Source: Myxococcus sp. (GTDB taxonomy: Bacteria; Myxococcota; Myxococcia; Myxococcales; Myxococcaceae). Taken from it: a stretch of DNA of 64,000 nucleotides. Numbering within the stretch: position 1 is the first letter of the stretch; the number at the start of each line of letters is the position of its first letter. Positions 11,946-59,440 of the stretch are shown here, piece after piece. Location of the stretch: positions 1-64,000 of the forward strand of contig JACSRE010000381.1 of assembly GCA_014879945.1 (NCBI GenBank), in the 5' to 3' direction. Both the position numbers and the translations under genes were made by a program. The notes beneath the pieces are model-generated. The model saw only the letters and a list, made by a program, of their open reading frames with translations, was not told the origin of the DNA and did no database searches.

Positions 11946-12047
11946 TGAGTGCGCGGGCCGCTCGAAGGCGAAGGCCCTGCCGCGCCTGCCAGCGTGGTGG
12001 GACCTCGACGCGCTGGCCCGTTTCGGGGTTTGTTCTTCGGCGACCTC

Positions 12048-12540
12048 ATGCTCTCGCTCACGGCGCTCGCGATCCTGACGTGTTCACCGAACATCCTCGG
12101 CGCGATCGCCGACAAGGACATCGCCGGCCCCGGAGTCACCCTGCGCCAGCGGGCGTCGACGAAGGAGCCGCGCGTCTTTCACGGTCGAGCTGCTCGACGG
12201 GACCGGGAAGGTCCTCTGGAGGCAGCGGCCCTTCCCGTCCTTGCCCACCCGGCCACCGCTCTTCTCGGACGACGGGCGGTGGGTGGTGCTCGAGGGCTCA
12301 GCGAGCTCGCATGAGCTCATCGTCATCGACCCGAAGGGCGTGGTGCGGCGCTCCAGGTTCTCCGCGCTGCTCGACGCCACCGAGCGCGCGCGCATCCCCC
12401 GCACCAACTGTGGGGACCAGTGGCTCGAGGGGTATCGGTTCGAGGGGCTGTCGGTGCGGGTGAGCGTGCAGCAGGGCCCGGAGCACCCACCGCTCGTCTT
12501 CGTGGTCGACGCCGCGACCGGCGCCATCACCCGGCGCTGA
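12048..12540 (+). pseudogene. Frameshifted hypothetical secreted protein gene
   Basis: Two ORFs in different frames join into one plausible protein. From the ATG at 12048 the frame reads MLSLTALAILTCSPNILGA (signal/lipoprotein-like), then up to STKEPRVF. One base later, in the +1 frame, it continues TVELLDGTGKVLWRQRPFP, then LFSDDGRWVVLEGSASS, to the stop at 12540. Each half is too short alone: the second has no start near its beginning and the first runs off into Arg/Ala-rich noise. The shift lies near 12178-12183 (GTCTTTCACGG). It may be a real mutation or an assembly error. The C-terminal part resembles a beta-propeller-like repeat (DGRWVVLEG, VIDPKG). Confidence 0.6.
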
Positions 12541-12573
12541 GGAACTCGCTTCGTTTCGTCCTCCGCGACGCGA

Positions 12574-12607
12574 CAGCCCCCATCGTCGGCGGCGGCGCAG
12601 GGGGCTG
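12574..12607 (+). terminator. Stem-loop downstream of frameshifted gene
   Basis: Perfect 8-bp inverted repeat CAGCCCCC/GGGGGCTG with an 18-nt GC-rich loop, starting 33 bp after the upstream stop codon. There is no T-tract, so intrinsic termination is uncertain. Confidence 0.3.
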
Positions 12608-12681
12608 AAGCCCTGATGCAAGCGCCGCCGAGCTCGCGCGTTAGCCCCACTCGAACTGCCACGCCGCCCCCGGGAGCACCC

Positions 12682-13716
12682 ATGCAGGCCCAGCCTCACC
12701 TCACCACGGCCCCCACCGCCGCCATCGCCGGCCGAACCATGAGGGCCCTGGCGCATCGCCGCTACGGCGCCCCCGGGCTGCTCAGCCTCGAAGACCTGCC
12801 GCGGCCGTCACCAGGCCCCGACGAGGTGCTGGTGAAAGTGCACGCCGCGAACGTCAGCATCGGCGACCACCACGTCATCGACGGCACGCCCTACCTGGTG
12901 CGGGTGACGCCGTACGGTGGGCTCCCCCGGCCGCGCAACCTGGTGCCCGGCACCACGCTGTCGGGCGTGGTCGAAGAGGTCGGCGCGCAGGTCACCGCCT
13001 TCGAGGTGGGCGACGAGGTGTTCGGGGAGGTCGGCCACGGCGCGTTCGCCGAGTACGCGGCCGCGCCTGCGCGCGCGCTGGCGTCGAAGCCACGCGCGCT
13101 CTCACTCGAAGACGCGGCCGCGGTGCCGTGGGCCATGGCGGCGCTCCAGGGCCTGCGCGACGCGGGCAACCTGCAGGCCGGCCAGAAGGTGCTCCTCAAC
13201 GGCGCGTCGGGCGCGGTGGGCAGCTGGGCGGTGCAGCTCGCCAGGCACCTGGGCGCCCACGTCACCGCGGTCTGCAGCACCCGCAACGTCGAGCGCGTGC
13301 GAGCGCTCGGCGCCGACGAGGTCATCGACTACACGAAGGCCGACTTCCTCCAGGGCGGAGCGCGCTTCGACGTGGTGTTCGACGCCGTCGGCAACCGCTC
13401 GGTCGCCGAGTTCCGGAGCGCGTTGACGCCGACCGGCACCTACGTCGCCTGCGGTGGCGGGGGCAGCACCTGGTTCGGACCGCTGGGGCGCATCGTGTGG
13501 ATGATGCTGTGCTCGCCGTTCACGAAGCAGCGCCTCAAGCCGCTGCTGGCCGAGCCCAACGCGAAGGACCTCGCCCTGCTGGCGGAGTGGATCGACGGCG
13601 GCCATCTGAGGCCCGTCATCGAGCGGCGGCTCCCGCTCGCGCGCGCGGTCGAGGCGCTCCGGCACGTCGGCGAGGGCCACGCGCAGGGCGCGACCCTCAT
13701 CACGATGACGTCGTAG
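12682..13716 (+). CDS. MDR-family NAD(P)-dependent oxidoreductase (quinone oxidoreductase-like)
   Basis: 345 aa from the ATG at 12682, which has GGGAG 6 nt upstream; the ORF start at 12616 lacks support. The core begins MRALAHRRYGAPGLLSLEDLP. It has the GroES-like fold (GDEVFGEVGHGAFAEY), then a Rossmann fold with the NADP-binding LNGASGAVGSWAVQLARHLGA (AxxGxVG type). The typical structural-zinc Cys cluster is absent, as in the zinc-independent quinone oxidoreductase branch. Probably a cytoplasmic NADPH-dependent enone or quinone reductase; the substrate cannot be inferred. Confidence 0.9.
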   Translation: MQAQPHLTTAPTAAIAGRTMRALAHRRYGAPGLLSLEDLPRPSPGPDEVLVKVHAANVSIGDHHVIDGTPYLVRVTPYGGLPRPRNLVPGTTLSGVVEEVGAQVTAFEVGDEVFGEVGHGAFAEYAAAPARALASKPRALSLEDAAAVPWAMAALQGLRDAGNLQAGQKVLLNGASGAVGSWAVQLARHLGAHVTAVCSTRNVERVRALGADEVIDYTKADFLQGGARFDVVFDAVGNRSVAEFRSALTPTGTYVACGGGGSTWFGPLGRIVWMMLCSPFTKQRLKPLLAEPNAKDLALLAEWIDGGHLRPVIERRLPLARAVEALRHVGEGHAQGATLITMTS

Positions 13717-13722
13717 TCGGGC

Positions 13723-14310
13723 TCACGGCATCGGAATGCGAACCTCGCCGGGCGCCACGTGCACCTGGCCGGTCGGCAACACCCACTGCTGCGGGAAGCG
13801 CTCCTTGTCGGCGCGCTCCTGAGACACCTCGCCGATGACCTTGAACGTCACCGAGCGTCCCGTCACCCGCACCGACCGACGCGAGAAGACGACGAAGTTG
13901 AGCTCGCTCGCCTCTTGCGAGAGCAGGTAGAGGCCGTCGGCCGGCGTGTCTCTGACGGCCTTGGCCGACGCCGCGCGCACCAGCGGGTCAGCGTACGCGA
14001 CGCCGAGCCCCGCGATGACCTGGTCCAGGCGCGTGCCCATCAGGTCGGTGAAGAGGCCGCCAAAGACGCTCCCCAGCCCGCCGGCGCCGCCTTCGTCGCC
14101 CCAACAGAAGATGAAGAGCACGCACTGGCGCGAGGCCTCACCCTCGAGCTTGTCGCCCACCTGGTAGCTGACCTCTTGCGGGCGCGCCCACATCGCGTGC
14201 GTCTCGGGCCGCATCGACGCCACGGAGTCGAGGTGACTGCGGCTCGCTGAGGTGACGGCGCACGACGAGAGGAGCCCAAGCACTGCGGCCATGAAGAACG
14301 TTCGGTTCAT
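13723..14310 (-). CDS. Hypothetical lipoprotein
   Basis: 195 aa. The N-terminus MNRTFFMAAVLGLLSSCAV is a clear type II signal peptide (LSSC lipobox). The mature part contains a hydrophobic Gly-rich segment (GGAGGLGSVFGGLFTDLMG) and a C-terminal beta-rich region (VVFSRRSVRVTGRSVTFKV). TAGCAC lies 5 nt before the ATG, consistent with the leaderless pattern. No family is recognised. It is convergent with the oxidoreductase gene. Confidence 0.75.
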   Translation of the reverse strand: MNRTFFMAAVLGLLSSCAVTSASRSHLDSVASMRPETHAMWARPQEVSYQVGDKLEGEASRQCVLFIFCWGDEGGAGGLGSVFGGLFTDLMGTRLDQVIAGLGVAYADPLVRAASAKAVRDTPADGLYLLSQEASELNFVVFSRRSVRVTGRSVTFKVIGEVSQERADKERFPQQWVLPTGQVHVAPGEVRIPMP

Positions 14311-14344
14311 GGCGCGCGTGCTAGCGCGGGTAAGAAATCTCTCA

Positions 14345-14381
14345 AGCGCGAAGACGTTCGTCAGCGCGAAGACGGTTCGTC
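14345..14381 (+). repeat. Two tandem copies of an 18/19-bp unit
   Basis: AGCGCGAAGACGTTCGTC is followed directly by AGCGCGAAGACGGTTCGTC; the copies differ by one inserted G. Each contains a small GACG..CGTC dyad. They lie in the divergent region between the lipoprotein and VOC genes and could be a regulatory site pair or a simple duplication. Confidence 0.6.
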
Positions 14382-14463
14382 AGCCCCCGGTGCGCTTTCG
14401 CTTCCGCTTCGCGCGCCGACAAGAGAGCGTGCGCCCCGTCGTTCACCCACGCCCGGAGCGCTC

Positions 14464-14877
14464 ATGCCCAACACCTTCGTCCACCTCGAGCTGAACACCG
14501 ACCACCTCGGCAAGGCCTCGGCCTTCTACAAGCAGCTCTTCGCCTGGAAGATGACGCCCATGAAGGGCCAGCCGTACCTGATGGTGGACACGGGCGCGAA
14601 GAACGGCGGCGCGGGCATTCAGCAGAAGCCGATGCCCGAGGCGCCGACGCAGTGGCTGCCCTACGTCGCGGTGGAGTCGGTGAAGAAGACGGTAGCCAAG
14701 GCGCGCAAGCTCGGCGCCACCGTTCACGTCGAGTACCAGCCCATTCCGGGCATGGGCGCGCTGGGCATCTTCAGCGACCCCACCGGCGCGACCCTCGGCG
14801 TCTGGGAGGCCACCATGCCGGCGAAGAAGCCCGCGAAGGCGGCGAAGAAGAAGAAGCCCAGCGCGAAGAAGAAGTAG
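14464..14877 (+). CDS. VOC (glyoxalase-like) family protein with lysine-rich tail
   Basis: 137 aa. Residues 1-118 form one VOC module: FVHLELNTDHLGKASAFYKQLFAW, YVAVESVKKTVAKARKLGATV and GALGIFSDPTGATLGVWE, all standard for glyoxalase/bleomycin-resistance fold proteins. The metal ligands His7 and Glu (GVWE) are in place. The last 20 residues are almost only Lys, Ala and Pro (PAKKPAKAAKKKKPSAKKK), a basic tail that could bind nucleic acid or surfaces. GGAG lies 5 nt before the ATG. The exact reaction is unknown. Confidence 0.85.
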   Translation: MPNTFVHLELNTDHLGKASAFYKQLFAWKMTPMKGQPYLMVDTGAKNGGAGIQQKPMPEAPTQWLPYVAVESVKKTVAKARKLGATVHVEYQPIPGMGALGIFSDPTGATLGVWEATMPAKKPAKAAKKKKPSAKKK

Positions 14878-14881
14878 TCGC

Positions 14882-16378
14882 CTACGGCTGCGCCCAGCGC
14901 CCGACCGAGATGGTGCCGCCCGGCTTCATCTCCATCAGGAGCGTGCGCGCCGAGTAGCGCGACTCGGTCAGCCATGACGGCTCGGAGCTCCACGTCACCT
15001 TCGAGCTCGTCACCTTGCCGGTCGCGTCGAAGCCCACCGTCACCTCTTCGGTGTAGTTGTTCACCTCGCCCAGCGAGCGCGGCGCGGTGGCGCCATCGGC
15101 GTCCTTCATGTCGTCGTAGCTGCCGGTCGCCAGCACCATCGAGGTGACCTTGCCGGCGGCGTCTTTGTCGACGCGAATCACGTTCGCCATGTGGTCGACC
15201 CGGCCATCGCCGGTGTGGTCCATGAAGATGACGTCGCCGGGCGTGAGCTGGTTGACGGGCAGCTCGGGCCGCGTCTCGTCGCCGCCGTTGTCCCTCGAGG
15301 CGCTCCACGGCGTGGTGACCTTCACCGCGCGTGAGGCCATGTTCGCGTCGACGCCCGCGTAGCGCAGGTTCACGCCCGTCATCATCGAGGCGTTCGGGTC
15401 GAGCCGCTGAATGGCCTGCGCGTTCTCGTAGCCCGGCCGCACCTGCGGGAGCGCGTCGAAGCGGCTGAAGAAGCCCCTGGTGTTGGTCGAGGTCGCGGCC
15501 TCCCACGTCTTCGCCGGCAGCCCGGCCGGGAGCGGCAGCTGCACGCCGAGGTCGGTCTTCACCTTGGTGCGGAACTGGTCCATCAGGAACAGCGAGGTCG
15601 TCTTGCAGTCGGCCTCGAGGCGGTTGGCCTTCGCGTGCTCCCAGTAGGCGGCGACGAAGGTGCCGTAGGCCTGCTTGATCTCGGGGTGGTTCCAGTTGAC
15701 CGGCTTCGACCGGTCGCTGATGGCCGGCAGCTTCGCCATGCCCAGCGCCTGGTGGTTCGACAGGTAGGCCAGCGGGTCGCCGCTGCGCTCCGCCGGCGTC
15801 CTCAGGTCGGTGCTCGAGAGCTTCGTGTCGAGGGCCTTGAAGGTCGCCGCGTCCACCTGCCCCGTCTGAGGGAGCCCGGCCGACGCCTGAAACGCCTTCA
15901 CGCCGCGCTCGGTGCCCGGCCCGAACTTGCCGTCCACCGTCCCCACGTTCACGCCGAGGCGCGAGAGCGCGTACTGCACCGCGACCGCGCGATCGCCGTT
16001 CTGGCCGCGCACCAGCGGGAGCGAGCCCGGCGCCGCGAAGGCGTTCTTGAGCGCCGCGTCTTTCGGCACGTGCGACCCGTCGCTCACCTCGAACACCGCG
16101 CGGGCCTGGAGCGCCGCCGCCACCGCGGCCGCCTTCGTCGGAGCCCCGGTGCTCGAGGTCAGCGCGATGGAGCCGGCGTCGCCGTTGCGGTCGAACGCGT
16201 CGACCACCTTGAAGAGCGCCGCGGCCTCGGCATCACCCGAGATGACGCCGTCGCGGTTGAGGTCGGCCCTCGCCACGTCCACCCCGGCCAGCTTCGGGTC
16301 GCGGCGTGCCTCGGCGACGTCGAGCTTCTTGTCCTTGAGCGACTGGGTGAACTCGCTGCGCGTGAGGCGATTCGGCAT
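14882..16378 (-). CDS. EF-hand / peptidoglycan-binding / papain-like amidase-type protein
   Basis: 498 aa, with no signal peptide. Residues 30-65 hold EF-hand-like loops (DLNRDGVISGDAEAA, DRNGD). Residues 128-185 form a PG_binding_1 repeat (VAVQYALSRLGV, DGKFGPGTERGVKAFQ). The C-terminal half has a Cys in EADCKTTSLFLMDQF and a His in GDVIFMDHTGDGRVDHMANV, the Cys...GDVIF...H order of NlpC/P60 or CHAP-type amidases. Likely role: hydrolysis or modification of cell-wall peptides. The next gene downstream in the same direction is unrelated; the next upstream is the other PG-binding protein. Lack of a signal suggests non-Sec export. Confidence 0.75.
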   Translation of the reverse strand: MPNRLTRSEFTQSLKDKKLDVAEARRDPKLAGVDVARADLNRDGVISGDAEAAALFKVVDAFDRNGDAGSIALTSSTGAPTKAAAVAAALQARAVFEVSDGSHVPKDAALKNAFAAPGSLPLVRGQNGDRAVAVQYALSRLGVNVGTVDGKFGPGTERGVKAFQASAGLPQTGQVDAATFKALDTKLSSTDLRTPAERSGDPLAYLSNHQALGMAKLPAISDRSKPVNWNHPEIKQAYGTFVAAYWEHAKANRLEADCKTTSLFLMDQFRTKVKTDLGVQLPLPAGLPAKTWEAATSTNTRGFFSRFDALPQVRPGYENAQAIQRLDPNASMMTGVNLRYAGVDANMASRAVKVTTPWSASRDNGGDETRPELPVNQLTPGDVIFMDHTGDGRVDHMANVIRVDKDAAGKVTSMVLATGSYDDMKDADGATAPRSLGEVNNYTEEVTVGFDATGKVTSSKVTWSSEPSWLTESRYSARTLLMEMKPGGTISVGRWAQP

Positions 16379-47797: not shown

Positions 47798-47958
47798 GCG
47801 TCGTCGGCTGACCGCGCCGGACGCAGGGTGGCGCCCTCCGTCGCGACGGGCGAGCGCCTCCACGCCGGGCCGCGCAGCTTCTGCGCGCGCCGCTTCCGTC
47901 ACCAGTCGGTCATGCCCGCCCCGTCGGCCGCCGCGCGACCGCTACGGTGTTCGACGTC

Positions 47959-49317
47959 ATGACGCCCCTGAGAGCCGAGCTGCTGGAGCGCTACGGGACC
48001 CGCCCCGTTCCCCGCTACACCTCGTACCCGCCCGCCAACCACTGGCGCGCGCTGAGCGAGCCCTCGTGGCCGGCGCAGGTGCTGGGCGCGATTCGACGGC
48101 CGCTCTCGCTCTACGTGCACGTGCCCTTCTGCAAGTCGCTGTGCTGGTACTGCGGCTGCAACATGCTCATCGACCACCGGGGCGAGCTGGTGGAGCGCTA
48201 CCTGTCGGCCCTCGAGCGTGAGTTCGAGCTGGTGTCGCAGCGGCTCCCGGCGAACCGCGAGGTCGTTCAGGTGCACCTCGGCGGCGGCACGCCCACGCAC
48301 CTCGGGCCCGCGCAGCTCGAGCGGTTGATCGGCGCCCTGCGCTCCCGGTTCCCCTGGGCGGCCGACGTCGAGGCCTCCATCGAGGTGCACCCGCCCGTCA
48401 CCACCGTCGCCCAGCTCGAGACGCTCGCGCGGCTCGGCTTCAACCGCCTCTCGATGGGCGTGCAGGACTTCGACGCCCAGGTGCAGTCGCGCGTCAACCG
48501 GCACCAGCCCTTCGCGCAGACCCGCGACCTGGTGGCCTCGGCCCGCGCGCTGGGCTTCGAGCGCGTGAACCTGGACCTGATGTACGGCCTGCCGCTGCAG
48601 ACGGTGGAGCGCTTCGCCACGACGCTCGAGCTGGTCAAGCAGCTCGACCCCGACCGCCTGGCGCTCTTCGGCTACGCGCACATGCCGACGCTCAAGAAGC
48701 ACCAGCGGCTGATCGACGCCAACGAGCTCCCGAAGGCCGACGGCCGGCTCGCGCTGCTCGAGCTGGCCATCACCACCCTCGAGCAGGCCGGCTACACGCT
48801 CATCGGCCTCGACCACTTCTCGCGCTCGCACGACGAGCTGGTGAAGGCGCGCGCCAACGGAACGCTGCGCCGCAACTTCATGGGCTACACCACCTGCCGT
48901 GACAGCGAGGTGGTCGCGTTCGGCCCGTCGGCCATCTCGGAGGTCGAGGGCACCTTCCTCCAGAACCAGCACGACGTTCGCGCGTGGTGTGGCGCGCTCG
49001 AGGCCGGGCAGCTCGCCGTCACCCGCGGGTGGGCGCCGACCGCCGACGACGACGTTCGACGCGCCCTCATCATGCAGCTGTTCTGTCAGCTCGACGTCGA
49101 CACCCGGGCCTTCGGCGCCGCGCACGGCATCGACTTCGAGGCCTACTTCGCCGACGAGCTGACGCGCCTGGGCGAGCTGGAGCAGGACGGCCTGGTGCGA
49201 CGGCGGCCCGGGCACCTCACCCTCACCGCCGAGGGGCAGCTGCTGCTGCGCAACGTCGCCAGCGTCTTCGACGCGTACCTGAAGGGCCCGCCGAAGACCC
49301 ACGCGCCGGCGGTGTGA
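47959..49317 (+). CDS. hemN: Oxygen-independent coproporphyrinogen III oxidase
   Basis: 452 aa from the ATG at 47959; a GTG four codons earlier also exists. Radical SAM site VPFCKSLCWYCGC (CxxxCxxC), the HemN start RYGTRPVPRYTSYPPANHW, VHLGGGTPTHL, FGYAHMP, and IGLDHFSRSHDEL for the family. It converts coproporphyrinogen III to protoporphyrinogen IX without oxygen. TACGGT lies 10 nt upstream. Head of the heme region; the aerobic enzyme HemF is at 58032, so both modes are covered. Confidence 0.97.
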   Translation: MTPLRAELLERYGTRPVPRYTSYPPANHWRALSEPSWPAQVLGAIRRPLSLYVHVPFCKSLCWYCGCNMLIDHRGELVERYLSALEREFELVSQRLPANREVVQVHLGGGTPTHLGPAQLERLIGALRSRFPWAADVEASIEVHPPVTTVAQLETLARLGFNRLSMGVQDFDAQVQSRVNRHQPFAQTRDLVASARALGFERVNLDLMYGLPLQTVERFATTLELVKQLDPDRLALFGYAHMPTLKKHQRLIDANELPKADGRLALLELAITTLEQAGYTLIGLDHFSRSHDELVKARANGTLRRNFMGYTTCRDSEVVAFGPSAISEVEGTFLQNQHDVRAWCGALEAGQLAVTRGWAPTADDDVRRALIMQLFCQLDVDTRAFGAAHGIDFEAYFADELTRLGELEQDGLVRRRPGHLTLTAEGQLLLRNVASVFDAYLKGPPKTHAPAV

Positions 49318-49326
49318 GGCGCGCCG

Positions 49327-50301
49327 TCAGCGCAGCCCGGCGCGGCGACGCGCGTCGTACGAGACGATCAAGTCGGCGCCGGCGCGGCGCAACGACACCA
49401 GCAGCTCGGTCATCGCGCGCTCGAAGTCGAGCAGGCCCTTGTCGGCCGCGGCGCGCACCATCGCGTACTCCCCCGACACCTGGTACGCGACGAGCGGGTG
49501 GAGCGTGCGCTCGCGCGCGTCACGAATGAGGTCGAGGTTCGACATCGCGGGCTTCACCAGCAGCAGGTCGGCGCCCTCGTCGACGTCGAGCATCAGCTCA
49601 CGCAGGGCCTCGCGGCGGTTGTGCGCGGGCATCTGGTACGAGGCGCGGTCGCCGAAGGCCGGGGCGCTGTGCGCGGCCGCCCGGAACGGCCCGTAGAGCG
49701 CCGAGGCCATCTTGATGGCGTACGAGACGATGCCCACGTCCTGGCACTTCGCCTCGTCGAGGGCGGCGCGAAGGGCGCCGACGCGGCCGTCCATCATGTC
49801 GCTGGGGCAGACGAAGTCGACGCCGGCCTTCGCCAGCAGCACCGCCAGCTCGGCCAGCTTCGGCAGGGTCGCGTCGTTGACGATGTGCTGGCCCTCGACG
49901 ACCCCGCAGTGGCCGTGCTCGGTGAGGCTGCACAGGCACACGTCTGCCATCAGCACCACCTCGGGCGTCACCCGGCGCGTCAGCGCGATGGCCTCGAGGT
50001 ACTCGTGGAGCGGCTCGGCCAGCGGCTGCGCCTGGTCCCACTTCGCGTCGGGGACGCCGAAGAGCATCACCCCGCCCACGCCGGCGCGGTGGAGCTGCTG
50101 CACCTCTTCGGCCAGCACGTCGCCGCTGAGCTGCCACAGCCCGCTGCCCGCCGACGTCTCTCGCCTCACGCCCTTCCCGTTCACCACGAAGTACGGCTGC
50201 ACCAGGTGCTCGAGCCCCACGTCGACCTCTCTGAAGAGCCGACGAATCGCGGGCGTTCGGCGCAGGCGGCGCAGGCGGGTCGCGGGGAAGGCTTCAGGCA
50301 T
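49327..50301 (-). CDS. hemB: Porphobilinogen synthase
   Basis: 324 aa. Zinc site in MADVCLCSLTEHGHCG (two spaced Cys plus the later Cys). Active-site lysines lie in SYAIKMASALYGPF and LLVKPAMSNLDLIRD. It condenses two 5-aminolevulinate molecules. Start at 50301 (the track runs on to 50742); hemD overlaps it by 8 bp, so they are co-transcribed. Confidence 0.98.
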   Translation of the reverse strand: MPEAFPATRLRRLRRTPAIRRLFREVDVGLEHLVQPYFVVNGKGVRRETSAGSGLWQLSGDVLAEEVQQLHRAGVGGVMLFGVPDAKWDQAQPLAEPLHEYLEAIALTRRVTPEVVLMADVCLCSLTEHGHCGVVEGQHIVNDATLPKLAELAVLLAKAGVDFVCPSDMMDGRVGALRAALDEAKCQDVGIVSYAIKMASALYGPFRAAAHSAPAFGDRASYQMPAHNRREALRELMLDVDEGADLLLVKPAMSNLDLIRDARERTLHPLVAYQVSGEYAMVRAAADKGLLDFERAMTELLVSLRRAGADLIVSYDARRRAGLR

Positions 50302-51017: not shown

Positions 51018-51083
51018 CGCCCCGCCAGCGCCGGGCCGGCTCCGACATGACGGAGTTGTGACGAAGCCCGCCCGCCGGTTGGC

Positions 51084-51096: not shown

Positions 51097-52137
51097 ATGG
51101 ACAGACGCCAACGCTTCCTCGCCGCGCTCGCGCGTCAGCCGGTCGACCGGCCACCGGTGTGGTTGATGCGCCAGGCGGGGCGCTACCTGTCGGGCTACCG
51201 GGCGGTGCGCGCGGAGCACGGCTTCTGGGAGGTGTGCCGCACGCCCGAGCTCTCGACGCGCGTGGCCCTCGAGCCGCTCCAGCGCTTCGCCCTCGACGCG
51301 GCCATCGTCTTCAGCGACATCCTCGTGGTGCCCGAGGCGCTGGGCGCGGGGGTGTCGTTCGAGAAGGGCGAGGGCCCGCTGTTCACGAACGTGCTGCGCA
51401 GCCGCGCCGACCTCGCGAAGTGGAACACCACCGGGCTGATGGAGCGCCTGGCCTACGTGCCCAACGCGGTGAAGCACCTGTCGCAGACGCTCGACGGCAG
51501 CCACGGCCTCCTCGGCTTCACCGGCGCGCCCTTCACCCTCTTCGCCTACAGCGTGGAAGGCGGCGGCAGCGACGACTTCCGCCACGCGCGCGCGATGTTG
51601 GCCAGCGAGCCGGGCCTGGCGCGTGACGCGATGAACGTGCTGGCTGACGCCATCGTCGAGCTGGGCCTGGCCGAGCTCGCCGCCGGCGCCGACGCGGTGC
51701 AGCTGTTCGACACCTGGGGCGGGCTGCTGACGAAGGACGAGTACCGCGCGCACGTGGTGCCGCCGCTCAACCGCGCGGCCTCGAAGCTCCGCGCGAGCGG
51801 CAAGCCCGTCATCCTCTTCATCAAGGGCGGCATGCACCTGCTCGAGGTGCTCGAGGAGGTCGAGGTCGACGGCGTCTCGCTCGACTGGCGCACCTCGTTC
51901 ACCGAGGCGCGCGCGGCCCTGCCCCACCACCTGCTGCAGGGGCAGCTCGACCCGGTGCTGCTCTTCGCGGGAGAAGAGGCCGTTCGGCAGCGCACCCGCG
52001 CGCTCCTCGACGAGCTCGACGCGCTGCCGGGCGGCAACCGCGGGTGCATCGTCAACCTCGGCCACGGAATCCTCCCGCAGACCCCCGAGCGCAGCGTGGC
52101 CGCGCTGTGTGAAGAGGTGGCGGCGCGCGCGCCATGA
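51097..52137 (+). CDS. hemE: Uroporphyrinogen decarboxylase
   Basis: 346 aa from the ATG at 51097 (MDRRQRFLAAL). PVWLMRQAGRYLSGYR is the family signature with the substrate-binding Arg; FSDILVVPEALG, GFTGAPFTLFAYSVEG, QLFDTWGG and NLGHGILPQTP follow. It decarboxylates uroporphyrinogen III to coproporphyrinogen III. First gene of the rightward heme operon; its stop overlaps hemA (ATGA). Confidence 0.98.
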   Translation: MDRRQRFLAALARQPVDRPPVWLMRQAGRYLSGYRAVRAEHGFWEVCRTPELSTRVALEPLQRFALDAAIVFSDILVVPEALGAGVSFEKGEGPLFTNVLRSRADLAKWNTTGLMERLAYVPNAVKHLSQTLDGSHGLLGFTGAPFTLFAYSVEGGGSDDFRHARAMLASEPGLARDAMNVLADAIVELGLAELAAGADAVQLFDTWGGLLTKDEYRAHVVPPLNRAASKLRASGKPVILFIKGGMHLLEVLEEVEVDGVSLDWRTSFTEARAALPHHLLQGQLDPVLLFAGEEAVRQRTRALLDELDALPGGNRGCIVNLGHGILPQTPERSVAALCEEVAARAP

Positions 52138-53222
52138 CGCTGCCCGTCGCCGTCGTCGGCATGGACTTTCGCGAAGGGCCGTCGTCGGTCCGCGCGCAGC
52201 TCAAGGCGTTCGACGACTCGCCCGAGTCCCCGAGCGCCCGGCTCCGCGAGAGCCTCTTGTGCGAGGGCCTGGCGCGCATCGAGAGCTGCTCACGCATCGA
52301 GTGGGTCCTCTCGGCGCGAGACCCGGCGTGGGCGGCCGCCCTGCTCAAGAGCGGGCTGCTCAAGGCGCTGGGCCCTTCGGGCGCGGGGCGGCGCATGCAC
52401 GTGAAGCTGTCCACCGGCGCGCTCCACTACCTGCTGCGCGTCACCCTGGGCCTCGAGTCGGTCGCCGAGGGCGAGCACGCCATCGGCCGCCAGGTGCTCA
52501 AGGGCTTCGAGCAGGCCCACGCCGCCGGCACCACCGACCGCACGCTGCACCTGTGCTGGCACGCGCTGGGGCGGGTGCTCCAGGCGCGGAAAGAGACCGG
52601 CATCGGCTCGAGCGTCGGCATTCAGTCGCTCGTCGTCGGCGAGCTGGGGAGCACCCCGAAGTCCGCCGAGGTGCAGCTGCTCGGCCGCGGAGAGATCGGC
52701 CGCCAGGTGCACAGCGCGCTCACTCGCGAGGGCTTCGAGCGGGTGACGACCTTCGCGCGCGCCGAGCTGCCCCGCTTCCACGAGCGCGCCGCGAGGTCGG
52801 CGGTGGTGGTGGTGGCGACCGGCGGGCCCGCGCCGTGGCTCGAGCTGCCGCCGCGAACCGATTGGCCGCTGGTCATCGACGTCGGCGCCCCGGCGCAGGT
52901 GCTCGCGGCCGAGGGCTGGCGCGCGCTGGGCCTCGACGCGCTGCTGACGCGCCGGGGCCTCACCCTCGACGCCGAGGCCCTGGCCACCCTCCACACCCTC
53001 GCCGACGAAGGCACCGAGGGCCTGCGCGAGGCGCTCGAGTCGGCCCCGGGCCACCACGTGCTGCACGCCCTCGAGTCAGAGAAGCGCCGCTTCTTCGAAG
53101 ACGACGTCGGCGCGATGTTGGCCGAGCTGCCGGCGAAGGAAGCGCGCCGGGTGGCCGAGACGCTGCGCGGCTTCACCCATCGACTGCTGGAAGTGACCCG
53201 GAGGGCTTCGCGTGTCCCGTGA
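52134..53222 (+). CDS. hemA: Glutamyl-tRNA reductase, divergent
   Basis: 362 aa. The catalytic Cys is in IESCSRIEW. The region usually GLDSMVLGEPQILGQ reads GLESVAEGEHAIGRQ, an unusual version. NADPH-domain QLLGRGEIGRQV and the C-terminal dimerisation helices (ESEKRRFFEDDVGAMLAELPAKEARRVAETL) are shorter than normal. It makes glutamate-1-semialdehyde for the C5 pathway. Overlaps hemE and hemC by 4 and 11 bp. Confidence 0.88.
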   Translation: MTLPVAVVGMDFREGPSSVRAQLKAFDDSPESPSARLRESLLCEGLARIESCSRIEWVLSARDPAWAAALLKSGLLKALGPSGAGRRMHVKLSTGALHYLLRVTLGLESVAEGEHAIGRQVLKGFEQAHAAGTTDRTLHLCWHALGRVLQARKETGIGSSVGIQSLVVGELGSTPKSAEVQLLGRGEIGRQVHSALTREGFERVTTFARAELPRFHERAARSAVVVVATGGPAPWLELPPRTDWPLVIDVGAPAQVLAAEGWRALGLDALLTRRGLTLDAEALATLHTLADEGTEGLREALESAPGHHVLHALESEKRRFFEDDVGAMLAELPAKEARRVAETLRGFTHRLLEVTRRASRVP

Positions 53223-54117
53223 GCTCAGGTTGGCGACGAGAGGCAGCGCGTTGGCGCGGTGGCAGACCGCGAAGGTGGCGGCGCTCCTCAACGGCCACTG
53301 CCGCGAGGTGGTCATCGAGACCCGCGGCGACATCGACCAGGCCCCGGTGCTGGCCGGCCGCATGGAGAAGGGCTTCTTCACCGCCGAGCTCGAGCGCGCG
53401 CTCCACGACGGGAGCGTCGACGTGGCGGTGCACTCGCTGAAGGACCTGCCGACGATTCAGCCCCCCGGCCTCTGCATCGGCGCGGTGCTCGAGCGCGCCG
53501 ACCCGCGCGACTGGCTCCTGGTTCGCCGTGACGCCGTCGACCGCGCCGCGGCCGTGCCGGTGAGGCCGGGCGGCCGCGTGGGTGCGTCGTCGCTGCGGCG
53601 CATGGCGCTCTTGCGTCACCACGCGAAGGAGCTGGTGCCCACGCCGCTGCGAGGCAACGTGCCCACCCGGGTGCGCAAGCTCGACGAGGGCGAGTACGAG
53701 GCCATCGTGCTGGCGGCGGCGGGCGTGTCGCGCCTGGGCCTCGACCTGACGCCCTTCGAGGTGTTCGCGCTGACGCCGACCGCCTGGGTGCCTGCGCCGG
53801 GGCAGGGCGCCATCGCGGTGCAGTGCCGAGACGACGACGCCGAGGTGCTCGCCCGGCTCGCCACCATCGAGCACGCCGAGAGCCGCCGTCGCGTCGACGT
53901 GGAGCGGGTGATGCTGCGCGCCTTCGAGGCCGGGTGCGCGAGCCCCTTCGGCGCCTTCCTCGCCGGCGCCCAGCTGCACGTGGGCCAGGAGCGCGAGGGC
54001 CGCTTCCTCGTCGCCCGCGCCGAGCTCGCCGCCCCGCTGACGCTCGAGCACGCCCAGGCCATGCTCCCCACCCTCGCTTTCCAGGAGACCCGCGATGCCG
54101 TCACTGAAGACCTCTGA
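53212..54117 (+). CDS. hemC: Hydroxymethylbilane synthase
   Basis: 301 aa from a GTG. LRLATRGSALARWQTAKVAALL, the active region VDVAVHSLKDLPT and GRVGASSLRRMALL, and the dipyrromethane-binding Cys in EAGCASPFGAF. It joins four porphobilinogens. Overlaps hemA and hemL by 11 and 23 bp. Confidence 0.98.
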   Translation: MSRELRLATRGSALARWQTAKVAALLNGHCREVVIETRGDIDQAPVLAGRMEKGFFTAELERALHDGSVDVAVHSLKDLPTIQPPGLCIGAVLERADPRDWLLVRRDAVDRAAAVPVRPGGRVGASSLRRMALLRHHAKELVPTPLRGNVPTRVRKLDEGEYEAIVLAAAGVSRLGLDLTPFEVFALTPTAWVPAPGQGAIAVQCRDDDAEVLARLATIEHAESRRRVDVERVMLRAFEAGCASPFGAFLAGAQLHVGQEREGRFLVARAELAAPLTLEHAQAMLPTLAFQETRDAVTEDL

Positions 54118-55363
54118 AGCGCTGTTCGAGCGGGCGCGGGGCCTCATGCCCGGCGGGGTGTCGAGCCCGGTGCGCGCGTTCGGCAAGGTGGGCGGCGTGC
54201 CGCGCTACGTCAGCAAGGCCCAGGGCCCCTGGCTGTGGGACGAAGACGGCAACCGGCTGCTCGACTTCTGCCTCGCGTGGGGCCCCAACATCCTCGGGCA
54301 CGCGCACCCGGCCGTCGTCGAGGCGGTCACCTCGACGGCGCGCGACGGCCTCGCCTTCGGCACCCCGCACCGCAACGAGGTCGCGCTCGCCGAGCTGGTG
54401 CTCGAGGCCTTCCCGGAGCACCAGCTGGTGCGCTTCGTCGTCTCGGGCACCGAGGCGGTGGCGACGGCGATGCGGCTCGCGCGCGGCGTCACCGGGCGGC
54501 CGCTCACGCTCAAGTTCACCGGCTGCTACCACGGCCACGTCGACAGCCTGCTGGTGAAGGCCGGCAGCGGCGTGGTGACGCAGGGCCTGTCGGACAGCAA
54601 GGGCGTTCCCGAAGGGCTCGCCGCGACGACGGTGGTGGTGCCGCTCGACGACGAGGCGGCGATGGCGGCGGCCTTCGAGCAGTACGGCCCGCGGCTGGCC
54701 GCGGCCATCGTCGAGCCGCTGCCCGCGAACAACGGCCTGCTCCTCCAGCGCAAGGCGTGGCTCGAGGCGCTGCGCGCGCAGTGCACGAAGCACGGAACGG
54801 TCCTCATCTTCGACGAGGTGATCAACGGCTTCCGCTTCCACTTCGGCGGGTACGGGCGGCTGATGGGCGTGACGCCCGACCTGACGACGCTGGGGAAGAT
54901 CGTCGGCGGCGGGCTCCCGGTGGCGGCGGTGGTGGGCAAGCGGGAGCTGCTCTCGGACCTCGCGCCGCTGGGCGCGGTGTACCAGGCGGGCACCATGGCC
55001 GGAAACCCGGTCGCCCTCGCGGCGGGCCTGGCCACGCTGACCGAGCTGCGCAGGCCCGGCACCTACGAAGGGCTCGAGGCCCTCGGCGCGCGGCTCGAGG
55101 CGCGGTGGAAGCAGCGCAGCCGGGGCATGGGGCTGCGCCGCGTGGGGTCGCTCTTCTGGCCCTGGCTCGACGCGAGCCTCCCGCCCACCACCGCCGAGGC
55201 CATCTCGCCCGAGGTGGCCGCGCGGTTCCACCAGTCGTACGCGCGCTGGCTCGACGAGGGCGTCTACCTGCCGCCGAGCGCGTACGAGGTGGGCTTCCTC
55301 TCGACGGCGCACACCCCGGCGCACGTCGATCGGTTGATCGACGTGCTGTTCCCGGAGGCGTGA
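54095..55363 (+). CDS. hemL: Glutamate-1-semialdehyde 2,1-aminomutase
   Basis: 422 aa, PLP fold type I. Start FERARGLMPGGVSSPVRAFG, FVVSGTEAVATAMRLAR, the pyridoxal Asp in LIFDEVINGFR, and the PLP-binding Lys in TTLGKIVGGGLPVAA. It makes 5-aminolevulinate. Its stop shares a base with the start of the histidine kinase gene (TGATG). Confidence 0.98.
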   Translation: MPSLKTSEALFERARGLMPGGVSSPVRAFGKVGGVPRYVSKAQGPWLWDEDGNRLLDFCLAWGPNILGHAHPAVVEAVTSTARDGLAFGTPHRNEVALAELVLEAFPEHQLVRFVVSGTEAVATAMRLARGVTGRPLTLKFTGCYHGHVDSLLVKAGSGVVTQGLSDSKGVPEGLAATTVVVPLDDEAAMAAAFEQYGPRLAAAIVEPLPANNGLLLQRKAWLEALRAQCTKHGTVLIFDEVINGFRFHFGGYGRLMGVTPDLTTLGKIVGGGLPVAAVVGKRELLSDLAPLGAVYQAGTMAGNPVALAAGLATLTELRRPGTYEGLEALGARLEARWKQRSRGMGLRRVGSLFWPWLDASLPPTTAEAISPEVAARFHQSYARWLDEGVYLPPSAYEVGFLSTAHTPAHVDRLIDVLFPEA

Positions 55364-56322
55364 TGGCGACCTGGCGGGCGCGCTCCGAGTACCTGGTGGC
55401 CGGCGCGGCGCTGGCGGTCATCGCCGTGATGGTGAGCTGGTGGGCGGTGCTCGCGCGCAGGCTCGCCGGCGACGTGCTGCGCCTCGAGAACCAGCTGCAC
55501 CTGCTGCGCACCGGAGAACACCTCGAGCTGGGCGAGCGCGGCGCCCGCCTCAACTTCATGGTGCTGGGCGAGTTCAGCGCGATGGCCATCTGCCTGGTGG
55601 TGGCGGTGGGGGTGCTGCTCACCATCGCGCGGCAGCGCACGCTGGCGCAGCTGCGCATGGAGCGCCTGCTCCAGTTCACCTCGCACGAGCTCAAGACGCC
55701 CATCGCCGGGGTGCGCGCGCTGCTGCAGACGCTGGAGCTCGGCGCGGTGCCGCGCGACCGCGAGAAGGAGTTCTTGAAGCGGGGCCTGCAGGAGCTCGAC
55801 CGCCTCGAGCACCTCGCCGAGACCATCCTCATGTGGCAGCGCTCGGTGGCGGCGGTCGGCCCGCTCGCGGCGGCGCCGGTCGACGCGCGCGCGCTGGTGG
55901 AGCAGGTGCTGGAGCACCGCGTGCGCACCGGGGTCGCCGAGCAGGTCGAGGTGGCCTCGCTCGCCCCCGCCACGGTGCTGGCCGACGGCGACGCGTTTCG
56001 CGTCATCCTCGAGAACCTGCTCGACAACGCGCGCAAGTACGGCGCGGGCGCGACGGAGCTGAAGGCCGAGCTGCGCGAGGGGGCGTGGCAGCTCTCGGTG
56101 CGCGACCATGGCCAGGGCTTTCGCGCCGAAGACGCCTCGCGGCTTTTCGACCCCTTCAAGCGCCAGAAGCACCAGGGAGTGATTCACGGGAGCGGGCTGG
56201 GCCTGTACATCTCGCGGCAGCTGGCGCTGAAGATGCACGGCGAGCTGACGGCGCACAGCGAGGGGCCGGGGCGCGGGGCGGTCTTCACCGTCTCGCTGCC
56301 GCTGCAGGAGAGCCAGCCATGA
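55363..56322 (+). CDS. Membrane histidine kinase encoded inside the heme operon
   Basis: 319 aa from the ATG at 55363. Two helices (LVAGAALAVIAVMVSWWAVLA and FSAMAICLVVAVGVLLTI) flank a short external loop of about 40 residues (LRLENQLHLLRTGEHLEL). HisKA has TSHELKTPIAG (His about 108). HATPase: NLLDNARKYG, RDHGQGF and GSGLGLYISRQLA. Translationally coupled to hemL and to the regulator after it (ATGA). The small loop argues for a small ligand or a membrane partner, possibly heme or a pathway intermediate; this is an inference from position only. Confidence 0.93.
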   Translation: MATWRARSEYLVAGAALAVIAVMVSWWAVLARRLAGDVLRLENQLHLLRTGEHLELGERGARLNFMVLGEFSAMAICLVVAVGVLLTIARQRTLAQLRMERLLQFTSHELKTPIAGVRALLQTLELGAVPRDREKEFLKRGLQELDRLEHLAETILMWQRSVAAVGPLAAAPVDARALVEQVLEHRVRTGVAEQVEVASLAPATVLADGDAFRVILENLLDNARKYGAGATELKAELREGAWQLSVRDHGQGFRAEDASRLFDPFKRQKHQGVIHGSGLGLYISRQLALKMHGELTAHSEGPGRGAVFTVSLPLQESQP

Positions 56323-57002
56323 CGGAGCGGGTGTTGGTCATCGAAGACGACGCGCTGGTGCGCGATCTGGTGACGCTGAACGTGTCGCACGCGGGGTTCG
56401 AGGTGGTCGAGGCGGTGGACTTCGCCGAGGGCCAGCGGCAGCTGCTGGACGGCGCCTGGGACCTGGCGCTCGTCGACGTGATGCTCCCCGGCGGCGACGG
56501 CTTCACCCTCACGCGCACCGCCCGTGAGAAGGGCGTTCGCAAGCCCATCATCCTCCTGACGGCCCGGGGTGACGTCGCGTCGAAGGTGCGCGGCTTCGAC
56601 TGCGGCGCCGACGACTACCTCGCCAAGCCCTTCGACGTGCAGGAGCTGATCGCGCGCGTCCGCGCCGCGCTGAGGCGGGCGAGCCCCGGCCCGATGCGGG
56701 AGACGCGGCTGACCGTGGGGGTGGGCTGGGTGCGCTTCGATACCGGCCAGGCGCAGACCAGCGAGGGGCTCATCTCGTTGTCCGACAAGGAGCTGCGCCT
56801 GATGCAGCTGTTCGCGAACCGCCCCGACGAGGCGCTGTCACGGGCCGACATCCTCGAAGAGGTGTGGGGCATGGACGCGTTCCCGACCGACCGCACCGTC
56901 GACAACTTCATCATGCGGCTGCGGCGGCTGTTCGAGGCCAACCCCGAAGAGCCGCGGCACCTGGTGACGCTGCGGGGCCGCGGGTACCTCTTCAAGCCAT
57001 GA
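56319..57002 (+). CDS. OmpR-family response regulator inside the heme operon
   Basis: 227 aa. Receiver with VLVIEDD, phosphoacceptor Asp about 53 (ALVDVMLPGGDG) and the Lys in YLAKPFD. The winged-helix domain ends TVDNFIMRLRRLFE..RHLVTLRGRGYLF. Starts within the kinase stop (ATGA) and its own stop overlaps hemH, so it is made with the heme enzymes. It probably controls heme-related promoters, including perhaps this operon; this is untested. Confidence 0.95.
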   Translation: MTERVLVIEDDALVRDLVTLNVSHAGFEVVEAVDFAEGQRQLLDGAWDLALVDVMLPGGDGFTLTRTAREKGVRKPIILLTARGDVASKVRGFDCGADDYLAKPFDVQELIARVRAALRRASPGPMRETRLTVGVGWVRFDTGQAQTSEGLISLSDKELRLMQLFANRPDEALSRADILEEVWGMDAFPTDRTVDNFIMRLRRLFEANPEEPRHLVTLRGRGYLFKP

Positions 57003-58039
57003 ACGCGCTCACCACGACTCCGAAGAAGCGGCGCGCGGTGGTGCTGGTGAACCTGGGCACGCCGTCGGCGCCGACGCCCGGGGCCGTGCGGGCCTACCTC
57101 CGCGAGTTCCTCTCGGACCCGCGGGTCGTCGACCTTCACCCCGTGGCGCGCTGGGTGTTGCTCAACCTCGTCATCTTGCCGAGGCGGCCCGGCAGGGTCG
57201 CGCCGCTGTACCAGTCGATCTGGATGGAGGACGGCTCGCCGCTGCTGGTTCACGGGCGGGCGCTCGAGCGCCAGGTGCAGGCGTTGCTCCCCGACGCCGA
57301 GGTGGTGCTGGCGATGCGCTATGGCGCGCCGTCGCTCACCGAGGCGCTGGAGCGCATCGACGGCCTGCGCCTGCGCGACGTCACGGTGGTGCCGCTGTTC
57401 CCCCACGAGGCGAGCGCGACGACGGGCTCGGTGCGCGAGGCGGTGTACACCCACTACCGGGGCCACCCCCGCGTGCCCTCGGTGCGCGTGGTGCCGCCGT
57501 TCTTCGATGACGCGGGCTACCTCGAGGCGCTGGCCGAGAACGTGCGCGGGCAGCTCCCCGGCGACGTGCAGCACGTGCTGTTCAGCTACCACGGGCTACC
57601 GGAGCGCCAGGTGCGCCGGGAGGACGGCACCGGGCAGTGCCTGGCCGCCACCTCCTGCTGCGCGGCGCTCACCGAGAAGAACGCCCACTGCTACCGGGCG
57701 CAGTGCTTCGCCACCACCCGGGCGATCGCCGCGAAGCTGGGCCTGGGCGACGTCAGCACCTCGTTCCAGTCGAGGCTGGGCCGCGACCCGTGGATTGGGC
57801 CTGCCACCGACGCCGCGCTCGAGGCCCTCGTCGAGCGGGGCGTCACGCGCGTGGCGGTGGTGACGCCGGGCTTCGTGGCCGACTGCCTCGAGACGCTCGA
57901 GGAGCTCGGCAAGGCGGCCGTCGAGCGCTTCCACCAGCGCGGCGGCCAGCTCACCGTCGTTCGCTGTCTCAACGACGACCCGACGTTCGCGCGCGTCATC
58001 GCCCGCCTCACCGACGCGGGGGCGCGGCGCCATGCGTGA
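56999..58039 (+). CDS. hemH: Ferrochelatase with Cys-rich internal segment
   Basis: 346 aa. [11 protein letters not shown] start, [11 protein letters not shown] (active His), and [13 protein letters not shown] (active Glu). Between the His motif and [13 protein letters not shown] lies [19 protein letters not shown], a cysteine-rich segment (C-x5-CC-x9-C-x4-C). Such Cys sets in some bacterial ferrochelatases bind a [2Fe-2S] cluster. Inserts iron into protoporphyrin IX. The start overlaps the regulator stop (ATGA). Confidence 0.97.
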
Positions 58040-58925
58040 GGCCTTCGCGGGGCTGCAAGAGGAGCTGCTGCGCGGGCTCTCGGCGCTCGATGGGAAGTCC
58101 TTCGTCCGCGACGCATGGGTGAAGCCGCCGGGCGGCGCCCTCGAGGGGGGCGGCGTGACGTGCGTGCTGGAGGGCGGCGGGGTGTTCGAGCGCGGCGGCG
58201 TGGCCTTGTCCGACGTGAAGGGGGCGGCGCTCCCGCCGGCGGCCACCCAGCGCAACCCGCACCTGTCGGGGCGCTCCTACCGCGCGATGGGCGTCTCGCT
58301 GGTGGTGCACCCCACCAACCCCAACGTGCCGACGGCGCACCTCAACGTGCGCAGCTTTCGCACCGACGACGGCGCGGCGTGGTGGTTCGGCGGCGGCTTC
58401 GACCTCACGCCCTACTTCTACGAGCCCGACGACGAGGCGCATTGGCGGCGGGTGTCGCGGCAGCTCTGCGCGAGCGACGCGATGTACGAGCGGCTCTCGG
58501 CCGACTGCGACGCCTACTTCACGCTCAAGCACCGCAACGAGCGCCGCGGGCTGGGCGGGCTCTTCTTCGACGACCTCAACGAAGCGCACCCGTTCGGCGG
58601 CGGCTTCGAGCACTGCTTCGCCTTCACGCTGTCGGTGGGCCGCGCGTTCCTCGAGGCCTACGCCCCCATCGTCGAGCGGCGGCGCGCGCAGCCGTACACC
58701 GAGGCCGACCGCGCCTGGCAGGCGTACCGGCGGGGGCGCTACGTCGAGTTCAACCTGGTGTGGGACCGCGGCACGCTGTTCGGCCTCCAGTCGGGCGGGC
58801 GCACGGAGTCGATTCTGATGTCGATGCCGCCGCACGCGAGCTGGCAGTACGGCCCGCCCGTCACCGACGCGCGGCAGCGACGGCTCGTCGAGCGCCTGAC
58901 GGTCAGCCCCACAGCAGGGGCTTGA
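58032..58925 (+). CDS. hemF: Coproporphyrinogen III oxidase, aerobic
   Basis: 297 aa. HemF block: [27 protein letters not shown] with the reactive His, then [32 protein letters not shown] and [21 protein letters not shown]. It uses oxygen to form protoporphyrinogen IX. Overlaps hemH by 8 bp; last heme gene, convergent with hemJ across 23 bp. Confidence 0.98.
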
Positions 58926-59343
58926 AGACGACCATCCCGACGATGACGATCATGAGCAGCGTCGGCAGCTCGTTCATCACGCGGAAGAAGCGGTGGTTCC
59001 ACGTCGCGGGCGCGGTGAGGAGCCGCTTGCGGGCGATGACGGCGAAGACGTGCGTGGCGATGAGGGCCGTCACCATCAGCAGCTTCAGCTGCAGCCACCC
59101 CTGCGAGAGCCAGCCCGGCATCAGCGCCACCATCCACAGCCCGGTGCCGGTGGCCACGAGGCCGGCGGGCGTGGTGATGGCGTTGAGGAGCCGGCGCTCC
59201 ATGACCTCGAAGCGGTCGCGCACCACCTGCTCGGTCTCCATCGCGTGGTAGACGTAGAGCCGGAAGATGTAGAGCAGGCCCGCCATCCAGCTGATGACCG
59301 CGATGACGTGGAGCGTCTTGAGCCACAGGAACATGCGCGGCAT
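58903..59343 (-). CDS. hemJ: HemJ-type protoporphyrinogen IX oxidase
   Basis: 146 aa, four helices. The family start [27 protein letters not shown] has the conserved His; [19 protein letters not shown] has the conserved Lys, and [19 protein letters not shown] closes it (UPF0093). Oxidises protoporphyrinogen IX in the membrane, passing electrons to quinone. It completes the pathway since no hemG/hemY is present. Tail-to-tail with hemF. Confidence 0.95.
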
Positions 59344-59440
59344 TTCACAGTGGCCGGGGGCGCGCGTGTCACGGCCCTGTCATGTGGTGCAGGCGGAAAC
59401 CGGCGCCGCGCCGGCACGCGGTGTGCTTCGGGGAGGCCTC

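Follow-up and report, generated by a model that had tools for sequence, protein, structure and literature searches.

A HemKR-like two-component system encoded within a myxobacterial heme biosynthesis operon is predicted to control heme gene transcription

The described two-component system that most resembles the one reported here is HemKR of Leptospira, whose regulator HemR has a hem-box published as TGACA[N6]TGACA and which is shut off by ALA via the kinase, HemK (PMC11426443). HemK phosphorylates HemR, its phosphatase activity is stimulated by ALA, and HemR governs the hemA operon (PMC11426443). Replacement of residues 31-62 of the Leptospira kinase left its function intact, and removal of the transmembrane (TM) region abolished it (Louvel et al., PMC2266917). 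In the literature that we found, HemKR is described in Leptospira only, and no report of a heme-operon kinase-regulator pair in myxobacteria was found. HssS and HrrS have been reported to detect heme at or within the membrane (PMC11237747, PMC5812335), and in M. xanthus the NmpRSTU system, which likely senses oxygen, has a regulator that binds the hemN promoter (PMC11841059). The first-pass annotation of the DNA studied here held that heme-sensing kinases usually sit beside efflux genes, a view that overlooks HemKR, which lies in a heme operon (PMC2266917, PMC11426443).

We analysed a stretch of 64,000 nucleotides from Myxococcus sp. (the window), which carries the following genes (coordinates, strand, product and the match that supports it).

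47947..49317, plus strand: hemN, oxygen-independent coproporphyrinogen oxidase, start at 47947 (GTG) or 47959 (ATG); Radical_SAM and HemN_C
49327..50292, minus strand: hemB, porphobilinogen synthase, behind hemD; NF006762, 382 bits
50294..51004, minus strand: hemD, uroporphyrinogen-III synthase, divergent from hemE; HEM4
51097..52137, plus strand: hemE, uroporphyrinogen decarboxylase, first gene of the operon; Pfam/NCBIfam
52134..53222, plus strand: hemA, divergent short glutamyl-tRNA reductase; GlutR_N only, TIGR01035 at 53 bits against a cut-off of 210
53212..54117, plus strand: hemC, porphobilinogen deaminase; Pfam
54095..55363, plus strand: hemL, glutamate-1-semialdehyde aminomutase; NF000818, 507 bits
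55363..56322, plus strand: sensor histidine kinase (HemK-like), 319 aa, two TM helices, phospho-acceptor His108; Pfam HisKA and HATPase_c
56319..57002, plus strand: OmpR/PhoB-type response regulator (HemR-like), 227 aa, Asp53; Pfam Response_reg and Trans_reg_C
56999..58039, plus strand: hemH, ferrochelatase; Pfam Ferrochelatase
58032..58925, plus strand: hemF, oxygen-dependent coproporphyrinogen oxidase; Pfam/NCBIfam
58903..59343, minus strand: hemJ-type protoporphyrinogen oxidase (UPF0093), 146 aa; PF03653, E=6.9e-46

The operon thus reads hemE-hemA-hemC-hemL-kinase-regulator-hemH-hemF, with hemD-hemB divergent from it, hemN upstream and hemJ convergent at its end. The ORF coordinates and the Pfam and NCBIfam matches bear out the earlier placement of a HisKA kinase and an OmpR-type regulator between hemL and hemH, and in the annotated window the neighbours of the pair are heme biosynthesis genes only; judging by this gene layout, both signalling proteins are expressed as part of the heme operon. 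At 362 aa HemA is short, and it is divergent, with Pfam recognising its GlutR N-terminal domain alone; the gene that opens the Leptospira cluster is likewise short (289 aa).

The overlaps noted in the first-pass annotation are all present: hemL ends at 55363, the position at which the kinase ATG starts (TGATG), the kinase stop and regulator ATG overlap in ATGA at 56319-56322, and the regulator stop and hemH ATG do likewise at 56999-57002. Its description of the pair as "translationally locked" into the operon is, however, too strong, since kinase and regulator each have their own GGAGG/AGGAG-like Shine-Dalgarno sequence, and since hemE/hemA, hemA/hemC, hemC/hemL and hemH/hemF overlap too, so that overlapping is a habit of this operon. 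The junctions with hemL and hemH also vary by species, ranging among relatives from -23 to +262 nt (hemL-kinase) and from -4 to over +200 nt (regulator-hemH). The kinase-regulator overlap, usually of 4 or 8 nt, is the sole broadly conserved junction, with an exception in G141, where a 1.4-kb gap separates the two genes.

We searched for the kinase in forty relatives, for hemH and hemE across the order and family, and with a kinase profile across the phylum and in 84,980 species genomes; nearly all genomes compared were metagenome assemblies, and no cultured strain with this operon was among those examined. In the family of the window, hemL-kinase-regulator occurs in genera g1, g2, g5, g13, g16, g18, g36 and g40, nearly always with hemH next. 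The same trio is present in another family (G183, G184) and, followed by hemB, further out (G145, G148, G152 and L204, L205 and L206, the last of these filed as an acidobacterial metagenome bin). A heme gene follows the trio in all of these genomes and loci and in G000, G005, G010, G021, G023, G007, G018, G109, G140-G142, G076, G078 and G079. This order persists where the relatives' kinases share only 41-50% identity, which places the arrangement beyond chance. Deviations take several forms: hemL-kinase-regulator-hemF with hemH elsewhere (G004), the pair retained after a 39-residue hemL remnant (G001), hemL-regulator-hemH without the kinase and with a second kinase-regulator pair elsewhere in the genome (G008, genus g3), and the pair without adjoining heme genes (G157, L190). 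The pair is absent from the other genera of the window's family, including the well-sampled g7, g11, g15, g33 and g38; in these, hemE is more distant (about 40% identical) and, where examined, no other cluster gene lies within 1.5 kb of hemE or hemH. Constant retention of the pair between hemL and hemH in Myxococcota, which the first-pass annotation had proposed to check, therefore does not hold phylum-wide, but it does hold for almost every operon of this type, the exceptions being G008 (regulator without kinase) and G077 (stretch unassembled).

Two observations stand beside this distribution. In G030, from another family, the gene after hemB-hemL encodes a kinase that shares the Trp-Trp but has a larger external part (L046:9148-10395); it has no adjoining regulator or hem-box and perhaps represents a distant variant. 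No hemE or hemH was found in G001, G002 and G006, the first and last of which are rated 98-100% complete, pointing to possible loss of heme synthesis or to missing contigs; G002 and G006 lack the heme pair as well.

Upstream of the heme genes we found a repeated element resembling the Leptospira hem-box, at three sites in the window.

51046..51062, plus strand: hem-box CATGACGGAGTTGTGAC, hemD/hemE divergent promoter; same site in 22/22 genomes with the operon
47898..47914, minus strand: hem-box CATGACCGACTGGTGAC, upstream of hemN; same place and orientation in G005 and G003
59368..59384, minus strand: hem-box CATGACAGGGCCGTGAC, upstream of hemJ; same place in G005, one base changed in G003 (GTGAC to TTGAC)

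Its core, TGAC-N7-TGAC, lies at 51048-51062 in the hemD/hemE intergenic region and was also present in every relative first examined. Within 200 bp upstream of hemE it was found in all 22 genomes with the operon versus none of 27 without the pair, the 22 being related, and so not independent events, spanning at least four families, and including G077 (with its hemL-kinase-regulator stretch unassembled) and G008, G007 and G142 (with the pair on another contig). In those 22 genomes the box is always on one strand, 33-92 bp from the hemE start, and an alignment of the promoters shows the box, together with the G immediately preceding its second TGAC, fixed or nearly so, with flanking columns close to background. 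The plain box is not significantly enriched in the window (3 against 1.6 expected), so the case for an operator rests on position, conservation and an extended form, CATGAC-N6-GTGAC. This form, whose additional CA and G were defined from the heme sites themselves, occurs three times in the window, before hemN, hemE and hemJ, against 0.04 expected. The whole 7.7-Mb genome has five such sites, three of them in the window; simple arithmetic puts the chance of three of five falling within 11.5 kb of 7.7 Mb at ~3e-8, the extension having been derived from these sites. The close relative G005 has exactly three, at hemN, hemE and hemJ, and G003 has four, those at hemN and hemE included. In G004, where hemH has moved to another contig, it has its own box about 25 bp upstream, and G170 has boxes between hemH and the kinase and before hemB. 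We thus propose as a predicted operator a direct repeat of (A/G)TGAC with an 11-bp period, before hemE (common to hemD-hemB), hemN and hemJ; in the genomes compared, this putative operator accompanies the pair across families. Extended boxes also occur about 50 bp before a carF-like gene of the plasmanylethanolamine desaturase family (G000:C251:4312-4328, L322), where the box is absent from G005 and may be due to chance, and before an isopentenyl-diphosphate isomerase-like gene in G003; since chance alone would yield a few additional sites per genome, we do not claim either gene as a target.

The proteins themselves point in the same direction as the layout. Profile comparison with hhalign aligned both proteins over their full length with their Leptospira counterparts (kinase E=1.5e-24, regulator E=2.6e-34), Trp-Trp falling on Trp-Trp, and the recognition helix of the regulator, FPTDRTVDNFIMRLRRLFE, matches that of Leptospira HemR, FPTNRTIDNSIVRLRQAFS. 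The best match of both HemK and HemR in the whole genome is the window pair, in each case by a small margin and for HemR by a tiny one (3.5e-34 versus 3.7e-34 for the next). In trees, HemR (98/92) and HemK (85/83) group with the hem pairs and their paralogs, apart from the other members of these families in the window's genome. The Leptospira rows are long branches, so that orthology of the window pair with HemKR, judged from sequence, is likely rather than proven; the evidence favours a HemKR-like mode of working more strongly than it does strict common descent of the loci. Curated NCBIfam kinase and regulator families gave generic matches only, far below cut-offs, solved structures only general HisKA and OmpR-type relatives, and a plasmid search with the regulator only generic OmpR-type matches.

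Hydropathy places TM1 of the kinase at residues ~10-31 and TM2 at ~64-86, leaving an external loop of about 32-35 residues. The loop is thus short, as previously noted, if somewhat shorter than the 40 or so residues suggested. No HAMP, PAS or globin domain was detected in the kinase with Pfam. In the AlphaFold model (mean pLDDT 83.5), two long helices (2-50 and 57-125) are joined by a short turn and continue directly into the catalytic part, giving a helical hairpin that lacks any folded sensor domain. Across kinases the span between the two hydrophobic segments ranges from under 20 to about 90 residues, while four residues are the same in all 15 hem kinases compared and are also retained in Leptospira HemK: W26 and W27, which lie towards the outer end of TM1, and M66 and E70, found where TM2 begins on the outer side. 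The suggestion that a short loop limits sensing is contradicted by this variation and by the replacement of the 32-residue Leptospira loop without loss of function (PMC2266917), and for the same reasons we set aside loop-based sensing: signal reading probably takes place within the membrane or at its edge. With the loop varying freely and Trp26-Trp27, Met66 and Glu70 held, the candidate site narrows, by analogy, to a putative membrane-edge porphyrin site near the Trp-Trp at the end of TM1 and the Met-x-x-x-Glu at the start of TM2.

Taken together, we consider it very probable, on sequence evidence, that the pair acts as a two-component system of the HemKR type and sets the transcription of heme biosynthesis genes. 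The membrane kinase would transfer phosphate to Asp53 of the regulator, which in this form would bind hem-boxes as a tandem dimer and, by analogy with Leptospira, activate the heme pathway. With an abundant supply of porphyrin precursors (5-aminolevulinate, or a downstream porphyrin or heme), the kinase may, again as in Leptospira, turn phosphatase, which would amount to feedback control of the pathway. The hem-boxes give a short predicted regulon of hemN, hemE/hemD and hemJ. Of the two outputs earlier suggested for the pair, the heme pathway is thus backed by synteny and conserved boxes, and no respiration-gene targets were found.

Another way to view the locus is that the pair resides in the operon for co-expression and controls other genes, for respiration or oxidative stress, with another PhoB-family regulator binding the heme boxes. 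On its opposite strand TGAC-N7-TGAC resembles the PhoB box, so the motif alone cannot name the binding protein. A paralogous pair at G000:C302:34600-36176 (L044:8580-10264), 45% (kinase) and 57% (regulator) identical, also carries a hem-box in its promoter; di-haem oxidoreductase, imelysin and cytochrome P460-like genes are transcribed divergently from it. Genomes without the heme pair are, however, expected to hold other OmpR-type regulators, and yet none of their 27 hemE promoters has the box. The box also moves with a heme gene, as for hemH in G004, and G002 and G006 retain the paralog alone and lack hemE and hemH as targets. We consequently regard this explanation as quite improbable. That an ordinary two-component pair was inserted by chance, without a functional link, might be entertained given the many two-component genes of myxobacteria and the lack of the pair in most genera of the window's family; its position is, however, kept in many genera, several families and another phylum with matching operators, and we regard chance as negligible.

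It is also possible, if somewhat doubtful, that the pair controls heme genes while the kinase senses the state of the envelope or redox rather than tetrapyrroles, fitting synthesis to respiratory need. A heme-binding pocket is unprovable from sequence, and short-loop kinases also sense membrane stress. M. xanthus, moreover, uses the likely oxygen-sensing NmpRSTU, with its regulator at the hemN promoter (PMC11841059). Against this, ALA shuts off Leptospira HemKR through HemK (PMC11426443), the conserved residues are placed at the edge of the membrane, where HssS and HrrS read heme (PMC11237747, PMC5812335), and the kinase is without a PAS or globin domain.

The HemKR-like reading also touches on relatives that may be phototrophic. 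The paralogous pair described above occurs in G002, G005 and G006 as well, and may share operators with the heme pair. Reaction-centre genes of the pufL/pufM type (PF00124) are present in three same-genus metagenome genomes (G001:C250, G003:C544 and G004:C19:23950-25605), in G004 on the contig that also carries the heme operon, and absent from the window's genome; phototrophic Myxococcota have been reported (PMC10576062). In G001, hem-boxes (L034:1686-1700, 5391-5405) lie about 60 bp before pucC and near a divinyl reductase-like gene, adjoining the kinase-regulator pair and hemL remnant, a possible link between heme and bacteriochlorophyll. One could go further and suppose that HemKR types are widespread tetrapyrrole sensors that predate the split of spirochetes and Myxococcota or have spread between them, with a Trp-Trp/Met-x-x-x-Glu membrane porphyrin site and bacteriochlorophyll-related control in phototrophs. 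We hold this broader supposition to be unlikely; if true, the system in phototrophic relatives would balance heme against bacteriochlorophyll.

Among known systems, HssRS (Staphylococcus) and HrrSA/ChrSA (Corynebacterium) can be set aside as the type of this pair, whose neighbours are free of the efflux or heme-degradation genes linked to them. None of these systems is known to lie inside a heme biosynthesis operon. Their kinases, like the one here, sit in the membrane, and they detect heme at or within it (PMC11237747, PMC5812335), but these systems respond to excess or supplied heme; HssRS drives heme efflux and HssS has an extracellular domain, whereas HrrS and ChrS have six TM helices. NmpRSTU is a myxobacterial signalling system touching heme synthesis (PMC11841059), but it has an NtrC-type regulator and a globin-type heme-bound sensor, lies outside the heme operon and belongs to an unrelated family. 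HemKR (Hklep/Rrlep; L. biflexa, L. interrogans) differs in its phylum, in an identity of only 26% (kinase) and 32% (regulator), in being followed by hemE rather than hemH, and in that hemN and hemJ are among the direct targets predicted here. In L. interrogans, however, the pair likewise directly follows hemL in a heme cluster with the same kind of 1-bp and 4-bp overlaps (hemL 11950-13281, HemK 13281-14198, HemR 14195-14887, hemE from 14877). HemK also has HisKA and HATPase_c, two N-terminal TM segments, a short loop and no HAMP or PAS domain (Pfam), and HemR a receiver with Asp53 and an OmpR/PhoB-type DNA-binding domain. A box with an 11-bp repeat precedes the first gene of both operons, by 53 bp in L. 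interrogans, the published TGACA-N6-TGACA being matched here in the slightly looser form TGAC-N7-TGAC. The same position, protein plan and DNA box across Myxococcota would make dedicated two-component control of heme synthesis more general than its description in Leptospira suggests.
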